Positions 765-33,102 of a DNA stretch of 64,000 bases are shown here, one piece after another (the first letter of the stretch is position 1; every line of letters begins with the position of its first letter). The stretch is from Fimbriimonadaceae bacterium. Its GTDB lineage: Bacteria; Armatimonadota; Fimbriimonadia; Fimbriimonadales; Fimbriimonadaceae. The notes below the pieces were generated by a model. The model was not told where the DNA came from and searched no databases. It saw only the letters and a list, made by a program, of their open reading frames with translations. The stretch is from contig CP075366.1 in assembly GCA_019454145.1 (NCBI GenBank), positions 1,777,564 through 1,841,563 of the forward strand, given 5' to 3'. The translations under genes were made by a program, and so were the position numbers.

Positions 765-2660
765 TTAGAACTTAATCTTGACTTGAGTGCCGAAGAGGCC
801 ACCTTGGAACTTGCCAGCGCCTGGTTGTCCAGGAACGCCAACACCCTTGCCGTCAGCATCGCTGTAAGCGTAGGTGAACATGATCGAAGAATTCTTCGAC
901 ATGTTGTAGCCCAACATCAGGGTGTACCATCGTTGGAACGGATCTGGAGTAGCTCCATCGAACTTGAAGTCATAGTTTTCGTACTTAAGACCAAGGTCGA
1001 AGTAGTTGCTCAGTTTGTAGTTGAGGCCCAATGCGATGCTGGTTGCATCATCATCTTCGCTCAAGTAGCCACTGAACGCGTTATCGTTACCAGAGAGCAT
1101 TTCGAACTTGCCCCAGATGGTCAAGTCGCTGCTTGGCATGAAGTGGAGCATTGCGTTGAAGCCTTCCACGTTGGTTGGGTTGTACCAGGTACCGACTCGG
1201 CCCCAGCTACCAGCTGCCATGTAGTTAGCTTCGATGACTCGGTAGCCAACTTTAGCGCCCCAGTTGTTACCGTGGTAACCAAGAGCAACATCCCATGCAG
1301 TGTTTTCTTCATCGAGAACGTTGTGGGTGTTTTCGCTGAGGCTGGTTTTGCCGTAGGTACCGTAGAAGTGAACGTTGCCGAACTTCAGGTTTACGTCAGC
1401 ACCATAGGTGTTCATTCGGTTAGCAGGTCCGCTAGCACCAGCAAAACCTTCGAGGTTATCGCTGTTTTGGAACAAGTAAGCGAGGTTGATTCCACCCATT
1501 TCGCCGATTGGGAAGCCCAATTGGATACCGAGAACTTTATCGATTTGCTCACCACCAAATGGGATGTAGCTGATTTCGTAGTAGTCGTCGGTGAAGAATC
1601 GGTCGCCAATGTTTCCACCGAATACGGTGAGGTTTACAGCACCGAAGTTGAAATCAACGATTCCACCATCGAATGTCCATTCGCCATTGTCGCGCCAATC
1701 TTGCTTGTAGTAGTCCTTGGTGTAGCTGGTTCGTTGGAACAGGTAAGGGCTAACTTTGTGGCTTACGCGACCAAGTTGTGCCTTCATGCCTTGTCCGACG
1801 AGTTCGCCGTTGAAGGTTACTGCCAAGCGAGCGATACCGAGGGTGTTTGTCCAATCATCGTAGAACTGGTCGCCGATGTTGCTGACGTAACCTTCGTAGA
1901 ATCCGATTTCATCGAAAGTGTTGCCACCAACGATAACTGCATCGAATTGTGGTTCGCCTTCTTTACCGCCCTTCAGGGTGATGTAGGCTTCGTGGAATAC
2001 GTTGAAATCCTTGTCCATTCCGACAGGAGTTCCGCTGTAATCGCCGTGGCCTTGACCCCAAAGACGACCGTCATGACCGAGACCATAGTTGTCGTCGTTG
2101 CTGTGACCAGCAAGCATCAGAACGTTAGCTTCTACACCAACAGTGATAGCGGTGGTTCGACCTTCTAGATCGTCCAGTCGCTTCTTCATGTCGGAGATTT
2201 CGTCCTTCATGCCCTTTACGTCAACGCCGAGTTGTTGGAGTTGAGGTTCGAATTCCTTCACGAGTCGTTGCATCGTGTCGATTGAACTCTTCCAACCCTT
2301 CATGCTGTTAACGTCAGCTTTCAGGTCATCAATTTGCTTTTGCAACGAACCGTCGTTGCTATTGCTGCCAGTTGGTCGGCCTTCCAGAGCCTTGATCTTA
2401 GCGTTAACGCCATCAAACTGAGACTGCATAGCCTTCCAGAGCTTGTCAAGAGCAACTGCCAACTCATAGCGGCTGGTCATTCGGGTACCGCGGTAGAAAC
2501 CGTCGGTGTAGCCGAACAGAACCTTGTCCTTGAGATTCTTGAGTGCTTGATACGCCCAATGATTTTCCGGAACATCCGGGAAATTGTCTTGTGCGAGAGC
2601 TGGGGTAACCAGCGCAACGCCCAAAACTGCGCTCAGAGCGAGCTTAAGTGTTTTGTTCAT
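765..2660 (-). CDS. SLH-domain outer-membrane porin (SlpA/Som type)
   Basis: 631 residues. Seen: a signal peptide ending ALA-Q near residue 23; one SLH domain at about 26-75 (FPDVPENHWAYQAL ... FYRGTRMTSRYELA); a coiled-coil stretch at about 80-170 rich in K, D, L and M heptads; and a long region of alternating aromatic and charged strands ending in KIKF, with the terminal Phe typical of outer-membrane barrels. This is the architecture of Deinococcus SlpA and cyanobacterial porins: the SLH domain binds the peptidoglycan-linked polymer, the coil spans the periplasm, and the barrel forms a channel while tethering the membrane. AGGAG lies about 14 bases before the ATG. Uniform codon choice and a dedicated terminator suggest high expression as a single gene. 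A 265-bp structured leader precedes it. Confidence 0.9.
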   Translation of the reverse strand: MNKTLKLALSAVLGVALVTPALAQDNFPDVPENHWAYQALKNLKDKVLFGYTDGFYRGTRMTSRYELAVALDKLWKAMQSQFDGVNAKIKALEGRPTGSNSNDGSLQKQIDDLKADVNSMKGWKSSIDTMQRLVKEFEPQLQQLGVDVKGMKDEISDMKKRLDDLEGRTTAITVGVEANVLMLAGHSNDDNYGLGHDGRLWGQGHGDYSGTPVGMDKDFNVFHEAYITLKGGKEGEPQFDAVIVGGNTFDEIGFYEGYVSNIGDQFYDDWTNTLGIARLAVTFNGELVGQGMKAQLGRVSHKVSPYLFQRTSYTKDYYKQDWRDNGEWTFDGGIVDFNFGAVNLTVFGGNIGDRFFTDDYYEISYIPFGGEQIDKVLGIQLGFPIGEMGGINLAYLFQNSDNLEGFAGASGPANRMNTYGADVNLKFGNVHFYGTYGKTSLSENTHNVLDEENTAWDVALGYHGNNWGAKVGYRVIEANYMAAGSWGRVGTWYNPTNVEGFNAMLHFMPSSDLTIWGKFEMLSGNDNAFSGYLSEDDDATSIALGLNYKLSNYFDLGLKYENYDFKFDGATPDPFQRWYTLMLGYNMSKNSSIMFTYAYSDADGKGVGVPGQPGAGKFQGGLFGTQVKIKF

Positions 2661-2728
2661 TTTTGTTTTGTTTCTCCTAAGAGGGGAAACGCCAAATGAA
2701 AAAATCGCTCAACCCGAATAGGGGAGCT

Positions 2729-2919
2729 GTTCCTCACAACTTTCCTTAAGTTCCCTGTGAGAACCAAGCCCAACACCCTCGGCTCGGCGACGCCTCCAAA
2801 TTGCGTCTCCAGTAGAGAGTTACACTCTCCACCGGATGTAATTATGGTCCAACTGCCAGAGGCTCCCCGGACCCTGTTAGAATCACTGGGTACTTAGTCC
2901 TGAATCCAGGTTGGAGGCG
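2729..2919 (-). ncRNA. Candidate structured leader RNA upstream of the SLH porin
   Basis: The non-coding space between the phosphomannomutase stop and the porin start holds several exact helices, read as minus-strand RNA: a 9-bp closing stem 2791-2799/2911-2919; a 4-bp hairpin 2899-2910 abutting it; a 5-bp stem 2846-2850/2869-2873; an 11-bp stem 2809-2819/2825-2835 with a 5-nt loop and two G-U pairs; and a downstream hairpin 2729-2738/2756-2764 with one bulge. The strand 2791-2799 can alternatively fold into a local GACGC/GCGTC hairpin, which would be exclusive with the closing stem. I could not match it to a known riboswitch, RNase P, tmRNA or 6S consensus. It may be a cis-regulatory leader or an independent small RNA. 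Confidence 0.5.
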
Positions 2920-2925
2920 AACTTG

Positions 2926-4281
2926 TCATGCGCGGATAAGCGCAAGTAATTCCTCTGTTTTAGAGCGCATTAAATTGGCATCAGCACGGGTTTCTACGTT
3001 CAACCGAATGACCGGCTCGGTGTTGCTTCCACGCAGGTTAAACCGCCATTCGGGGAATTCAATGCTAATGCCGTCCGTCTTGTCCACAATTCCTCCCGGG
3101 TATGCGGCTTCAGCACGAGCCAGCACGGTAGGAACGTCGTCCACTGTACTATTGACCTCGCCGGAGCAGGGGAATTTTTCGATCATCGCGCCAACAAGCT
3201 CGCCTAAGCTCTTGCCGGTTTTCGCCATTAGTTTAAGAACTAATAGCATGGGAATCATGCCGCTATCGCAATACCAATGGTCGCGGAAATAGTGGTGCGC
3301 GCTCATTTCGCCGCCGTAGACCGCGTTTTCGGCGCGCATTTTTTCTTTGATAAATGCGTGACCGCTTTTGCACATCACTGCCCGTCCGCCAGATTCAGCC
3401 ACGATCTCTAGTGTGTTCCACATCAAGCGAGGATCATAGATAATAGTCGCTCCGGGATTATCAACAAGAATCGCCTGAGCAAGCAACCCAACTATATAAT
3501 ATCCCTCAATAAAGTTGCCTTTTTCATCCAACAAAAAGCACCGATCATAATCGCCATCCCATGCAATTCCTAGGTCATATCCACCCTTGGCAAGTTCCGC
3601 CTCGACTGGCGCACGACTCTCTTCCAAAATCGGATTCGGCACTCCGTTCGGAAAATGACCATCCGGCTCGAACATCATTTTTGTGACTTGCAATGGCAGG
3701 TGGGGCATCAGGGCTTCCATTGCAATTCCTGCCGCTCCATTGCCAGGGCTGGCAAGAACCTTGAAATTCTTTAACTCACTGGCGGGGCAGATTTTGAGCA
3801 GGTGCTGGACAAAGTCGGTGTAGCAATCCTTTTTGGTAATTGCGCCTCCACCTGCCCCTGCAGGCACTCCACCCTGGAGAACCTTATGCGCCAATTCCTC
3901 AATGTCGTACAGGCCAGTATCTCCGCTGATGGGTCGGCTTTCTTGCCGCACCATTTTCATGCCGTTGTATTCCGGCGGATTGTGGCTCGCCGTAATCATG
4001 ATGCCGCCATCGTAGCCATAGTGAGCGGTGGCAAAGTACACCATTTCCGTGCCAATCATGCCCAAATCAATTACATCACAACCTTCTTCATTTAGGCCGC
4101 GGCTAAGAGATTCCGCAAGTTCTGGCCCTGTGAGGCGAATATCGTAACCGACACAAACCGTTTTCGCGCCAGTTTTTTGGGCGTATGCACGACCAATCGC
4201 GTATGCCACTTCGGGATTCAATTCGCTCGGAACTTTGCCCCGCACGTCGTACGCTTTAAAGCACGCTAAATACTGCCCCAT
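2926..4281 (-). CDS. manB: Phosphomannomutase/phosphoglucomutase
   Basis: 451 residues, normal length for the alpha-D-phosphohexomutase family. It interconverts hexose 6- and 1-phosphates, supplying GDP-mannose or other nucleotide sugars for envelope glycans. Landmarks: N-terminal CFKAYDVRGK; phosphoserine loop TASHNPP (Ser99); metal-binding DGDYDRC (Asp242, 244, 246); sugar-binding GEMSAHHYF near 324; phosphate-binding RGSNTEPVIR near 425. The opening resembles enterobacterial CpsG/ManB. The gene is transcribed leftward toward the SLH porin but separated from it by the structured spacer. Choice between mannose and glucose specificity cannot be made from sequence alone. Confidence 0.9.
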   Translation of the reverse strand: MGQYLACFKAYDVRGKVPSELNPEVAYAIGRAYAQKTGAKTVCVGYDIRLTGPELAESLSRGLNEEGCDVIDLGMIGTEMVYFATAHYGYDGGIMITASHNPPEYNGMKMVRQESRPISGDTGLYDIEELAHKVLQGGVPAGAGGGAITKKDCYTDFVQHLLKICPASELKNFKVLASPGNGAAGIAMEALMPHLPLQVTKMMFEPDGHFPNGVPNPILEESRAPVEAELAKGGYDLGIAWDGDYDRCFLLDEKGNFIEGYYIVGLLAQAILVDNPGATIIYDPRLMWNTLEIVAESGGRAVMCKSGHAFIKEKMRAENAVYGGEMSAHHYFRDHWYCDSGMIPMLLVLKLMAKTGKSLGELVGAMIEKFPCSGEVNSTVDDVPTVLARAEAAYPGGIVDKTDGISIEFPEWRFNLRGSNTEPVIRLNVETRADANLMRSKTEELLALIRA

Positions 4282-33026: not shown

Positions 33027-33102
33027 TGGCGACCCCGGCGCGATTCGAACGCGCGGCCAACGGCTTAGAAGGCCGTTGCTCTATCCACTGAGCTACGGGG
33101 CC
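33027..33102 (-). tRNA. tRNA-Arg (anticodon UCU)
   Basis: The minus strand folds into a complete cloverleaf of 76 nt including an encoded CCA. Acceptor GGCCCCG pairs with CGGGGTC (one G-T), the anticodon stem ACGGC/GCCGT encloses loop CTTCTAA giving anticodon TCT, and the T arm GCGCG/CGCGC holds TTCGAAT. It reads AGA (and AGG by wobble). Confidence 0.96.

Follow-up and report, generated by a model that had tools for sequence, protein, structure and literature searches.

In the window, a 64 000-nucleotide stretch of a Fimbriimonadaceae genome, the genes for phosphomannomutase and for an SLH-domain outer-membrane porin are separated by 265 bases that are non-coding according to the list of open reading frames (2661–2925). 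The question raised by this locus is whether the porin mRNA carries a structured leader here and, if so, what recognizes it. An initial annotation had placed an undescribed structured leader in about 190 nt of this gap, and the interval was confirmed to be free of genes between two minus-strand genes. As both flanking genes are on the minus strand, the leader RNA was assigned to that strand as well. For the minus strand of 2729–2919 the folding energy is −78.5 kcal/mol (z −4.1, lower than in any of 200 shuffles), but the plus strand also outfolds its shuffles (z −3.65), and folding energy alone therefore decides little. The features discussed below are as follows.

765–2660, minus strand: SLH-domain outer-membrane porin gene downstream of the leader (open reading frame, 631 residues)
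2658–2835, minus strand: leader of the SLH porin mRNA, by comparison with relatives
2674–2678, minus strand: Shine–Dalgarno sequence AGGAG, from the sequence
2733–2835, minus strand: conserved element H1 to H4, to which the ribosome-binding region is added, by comparison with relatives
2733–2761, minus strand: hairpin H4, CTCACA-GGGAACTTAAGGAAAGT-TGTGAG, with a covarying outer stem and the invariant loop GNAAC..GG..A, from covariation in the family and the motif across the phylum
2763–2788, minus strand: helix H3, 2781–2788 with 2763–2770, of the GCCAAGC/GCTTGGY type with a variable spacer inside, from compensatory events on the porin tree
2789–2807, minus strand: hairpin H2, GACGC..GGA..GCGTC, with GGA in the loop, from covariation
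2809–2835, minus strand: hairpin H1 at the predicted mRNA 5′ end, from folding of 42 leaders
2841–2846, minus strand: predicted −10 box CATAAT of a sigma-70-type promoter, by comparison
2882–2890, minus strand: putative upstream promoter element, CCCAGTGAT here and TCCTAGTAA-like in relatives, seen by eye
2926–4281, minus strand: phosphomannomutase gene, the upstream neighbour of the gap

Residues 23–103 of the porin match an S-layer homology domain of known structure (8bz2, E 3e-6), and residues 26–75 give a weak match to NCBIfam por_somb. A porin of this type, which links the outer membrane to the cell wall, is present as a single copy in the genome of the window. Upstream, csrA is 4.6 kb from the porin start. 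Second SLH porin paralogues were seen in the same order (L172–L177), and their leaders appear to be without H4.

A search at the DNA level showed that relatives also carry the leader ahead of this porin. A covariance model of the H2–H3–H4 part (R1), built from 16 relatives, matched 70 of 85 Fimbriimonadaceae genomes at E≤1, and across 291 genomes of the phylum its matches were confined to this family except for one marginal match (E=0.1). Seventy-five of the 80 matches examined sit 56–89 nt before an SLH porin start and were judged to be genuine leaders, the remaining five being the weakest. Among the porin leaders read by eye from family genomes without an R1 match, most showed degenerate forms of the hairpins. 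Searching the whole window against Rfam 15 returned only a tRNA (33030–33102) above the gathering threshold and nothing at the leader. Permissive thresholds gave no plausible match for the leader region or for 20 relatives, whose leaders, searched up to E 3, matched nothing except two microRNA models. Outside the phylum, one exact-pattern scan found two exact 20-mer matches (L122 and L129), which is about the number expected by chance; neither precedes a porin, and the presence of the element outside the phylum was rejected on this basis. The first of these, at 2430–2485 of L122 (a Eubacteriales MAG), is an exact 20-mer of the H4 core with an R1 score of 32 bits, is not located before a porin and is probably due to chance.

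Compensatory changes across relatives, which the initial annotation had named as the support to be sought by covariance modelling, were found. RNAalifold recovered H2, H3 and the H4 stem unguided. The 77 aligned R1 matches contained 145 double-change cells compared to 46 in shuffles and 15–45 in slid versions, a count above every shuffle and every slid version, although the alignment was fitted to R1 and this favours the covariation count. Compensatory events were also inferred on a phylogeny of the porins encoded downstream, which is independent of the RNA, giving 61 events compared to 1–4 in slid controls. By helix, H3 accounted for 26 events but also 101 breaks, the outer stem of H4 for 18 events and 4 breaks, and the inner stem of H4 for 3 events and 23 breaks. 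With so few compensations and so many breaks, and without a counterpart in other families, the inner AACUU/AAGUU stem is probably not a helix; it was rejected and treated as loop. Compensatory changes in helices and a fixed position before one gene family are both features of a structured cis-acting leader, and both were found here. Comparison with relatives shows the predicted leader to be conserved, covarying, specific to the porin and without an Rfam match, which upholds the initial description of it as undescribed and structured.

Of 75 leaders, 42 have such a −10 box at the right distance, where chance would give 6.7, and distant relatives carry TTGxxx approximately 17 nt ahead of it. We infer this promoter and an mRNA 5′ end at about 2834, which would place H1 within a few bases of the predicted transcript start. 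Across the 42 leaders H1 had a mean folding z of −3.0, with 93 % below −1, and its sequence varies between leaders while the fold is kept. An 11 bp stem (2825–2835 with 2809–2819) and a GACGC/GCGTC hairpin (2789–2807) had both been described from the window alone, and both are present with structures conserved in relatives. The element at 2882–2890 is possibly an activator site. The spacer from −35 to −10 contains inverted repeats (2846–2874, also seen in L004 and L006), which differ in sequence between species of the genus and are a possible operator.

The larger architecture of the initial annotation did not survive this comparison. It had proposed a 9 bp stem closing a 111 nt multi-branch domain, one strand of which could switch to the GACGC/GCGTC hairpin. 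The arms of this stem are 2911–2919 and 2791–2799. The 5′ arm is located beyond the predicted −10 box, around 70 nt further upstream and immediately next to where the upstream gene ends. The sister species L002, with a leader that is 98 % identical, does not have this arm, and neither do the leaders of the other five relatives checked. As the predicted transcript does not include the 5′ arm and these relatives lack it, the 111 nt domain and the switch are both very unlikely, and the closing stem was rejected together with the switch. The true conserved element is shorter, running from H1 to H4 with the ribosome-binding region added, and its most conserved part, the H4 loop, had been overlooked.

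A hairpin following the scheme stem-AG-(GNAAC..GG..A)-CU-stem is found in porin leaders of other families and orders, and its stem shows compensatory changes. A strict pattern was matched in 32 of 50 leaders outside the family; shuffled leaders gave a mean of 3.8 matches and reverse-complement leaders gave 3. A few of these 32 matches fall on other sites, and the pattern misses several clear cases. In 28 aligned hairpins from the phylum, the stem showed 38 double-change cells versus 15.5 when shuffled, and the AG/CU closure was invariant. A second model (R2), built from the phylum hairpins without any Fimbriimonadaceae sequence, was run on 18 family loci (49 kb), where 8 of its 9 matches fell exactly on H4; none of these matches is strong by itself, and R2 missed the copy in the window. 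The Fimbriimonadaceae H4 is taken to be the same element as the phylum-wide hairpin, with a longer loop. As one hairpin recurs before the same gene throughout Armatimonadota, it is considered to be a real, undescribed regulatory RNA. An upstream reading frame at the AUGG in the H4 loop was rejected, since the AUG is not conserved. A segment of 16S rRNA, GUAACAAGGUAACC, which we take to be E. coli positions of about 1497–1510, fits GNAACANGGNNAC at every fixed position; however, it forms a linker between two helices there rather than the hairpin loop of H4, and the likeness could be chance.

On balance, these comparisons favour the porin 5′ UTR being a porin-specific cis leader in which H1 protects the message, H4 binds a putative trans factor and CsrA probably acts at H2. 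H1 would protect the message from decay at its 5′ end, in the manner of stable mRNAs for outer-membrane proteins. That the loop is invariant while the stem covaries suggests recognition in trans, and H4 may be the recognition site of such a factor, most likely an RNA-binding protein, which would set the lifetime or translation of the porin mRNA from a position approximately 75–110 nt before the start codon. H2 would add, in the order of the host, one or more CsrA-type GGA hairpins to this arrangement and, given these, CsrA probably binds there too.

Of 75 family leaders, 67 have GGA in the H2 loop and 55 have CAGGA(A/C/T)G there, matching the CsrB repeat CAGGA(U/A/C)G that marks CsrA sites (PMC7652899). 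All 70 good family genomes carry csrA and its presence therefore does not discriminate. GGA hairpins 5′ of H4 were found in 18 of 23 leaders from other families of the same order (6.1 expected), in 6 of 15 from other csrA-positive groups (3.7 expected) and in 0 of 6 from csrA-negative genomes (0.9 expected), a contrast based on only six csrA-negative leaders and confounded by kinship. This distribution fits CsrA at H2 but follows kinship as well, and binding of CsrA to H2 is plausible. FliW is absent and csrA kept in nine of the 70 genomes (G063, G064, G065, G072, G074, G076, G077, G079 and G095), two of which (G074 and G076) carry a second csrA, and most of these FliW-less genomes keep the porin leader. 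In G077, the sole one of the nine tested for flagellin, flagellin is absent too. csrA has therefore outlived FliW and, at least in G077, flagella, which suits a non-flagellar target without naming it.

A stronger role for CsrA, in which H2 and H4 are both CsrA sites and a bridging dimer stabilizes or represses the porin mRNA, seems unlikely. At least two GGA sites in single-stranded hairpin loops are found in CsrA leaders; here there is one in the H2 loop, with its CsrB repeat, and further GG(A) in H4, where two GGA motifs occur in the window. The H4 bulge ACAGGGA resembles the CsrA SELEX consensus RUACARGGAUGU (PMC7652899), the H4 loop contains AAGGA, and csrA is present throughout the family, also where FliW has been lost. 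Leaders bound by CsrA/RsmA, such as the flhDC leader, likewise have GGA in hairpin loops near the 5′ end and far from the Shine–Dalgarno sequence, in genomes with csrA (PMC7652899). Here, however, H4 is phylum-wide even without csrA and keeps GG rather than GGA. It occurs in the csrA-negative genomes of families f6 and f10 that were tested, often with GG not followed by A (AUGGCAA, ACGGCCA), and its long invariant loop exceeds what CsrA needs. CsrA was rejected as the ancestral partner of H4 because H4 is present in csrA-negative genomes, and the literature searched did not report an SLH porin as a CsrA target.

Equally improbable, in our estimation, is a leader without any regulator, whose hairpins would act passively, delaying decay and keeping the ribosome-binding region accessible. 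Stabilizers of the ompA type place a 5′ hairpin on the mRNA of an outer-membrane protein, and the 42 porin leaders with a hairpin at the predicted 5′ end are alike in this respect. Strong Shine–Dalgarno sequences in many leaders of the phylum agree with such a role, as does an SLH porin mRNA that is probably abundant. However, the porin leader adds covarying helices and an invariant loop, and a passive stabilizer leaves this phylum-wide loop motif unexplained.

Small RNAs control porins in other bacteria, and pairing of a small RNA with the H4 loop would account for an invariant loop on a covarying stem, as in kissing targets. Cyanobacterial porins also carry SLH domains. The string GGAAACA is shared with a hairpin loop of the cyanobacterial small RNA Yfr2 (PMC1242208), whose partner Yfr1 has a nearly complementary motif (PMC6778093). 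Yfr2, though, is a freestanding small RNA, and the likeness to it is this one short string; a partner RNA for H4 is not known, and none of the 20 porin leaders searched had a plausible match in Rfam. We regard this explanation as less probable than the two before it.

There is little likelihood that H4 is the aptamer of a metabolite riboswitch, which its conserved loop and cis position would allow, as the genes controlled are all of one kind, what is shared across the phylum is one short hairpin, a conserved terminator was not seen and the proposed switch stem fails. Least probable of all is a separate small RNA ending before the porin at a terminator-like hairpin (2707–2727) followed by six T (2698–2727 as a whole), which was rejected since the run of T is broken up in L002, the sister species, and was not seen in the other leaders inspected. 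The element also stays 56–89 nt from the porin start.

With the preferred reading of a cis leader recognized in trans, a wider proposal can be made, tentatively and at somewhat under even likelihood: that H4 is a phylum-wide RNA motif read by a dedicated putative trans factor controlling the main SLH porin, with CsrA sites added in one order. RNA control of outer-membrane porins is best known from proteobacteria, through small RNAs, and less so from cyanobacteria. The present element would give a diderm phylum outside both groups its own conserved leader RNA on an SLH porin. H4 is a defined RNA motif and an obvious bait for pull-down, and the leader can be used to ask whether CsrA acts on an envelope target in bacteria after the loss of flagella. 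A second conserved stretch, GAAAGGAGGTGAAA..ACCTTGAA..GGTGATAG, which has no Rfam match, was observed upstream of H4 in L216, L222, L223 and L224, within porin leaders of families f32, f34 and f35, and also looks structured.
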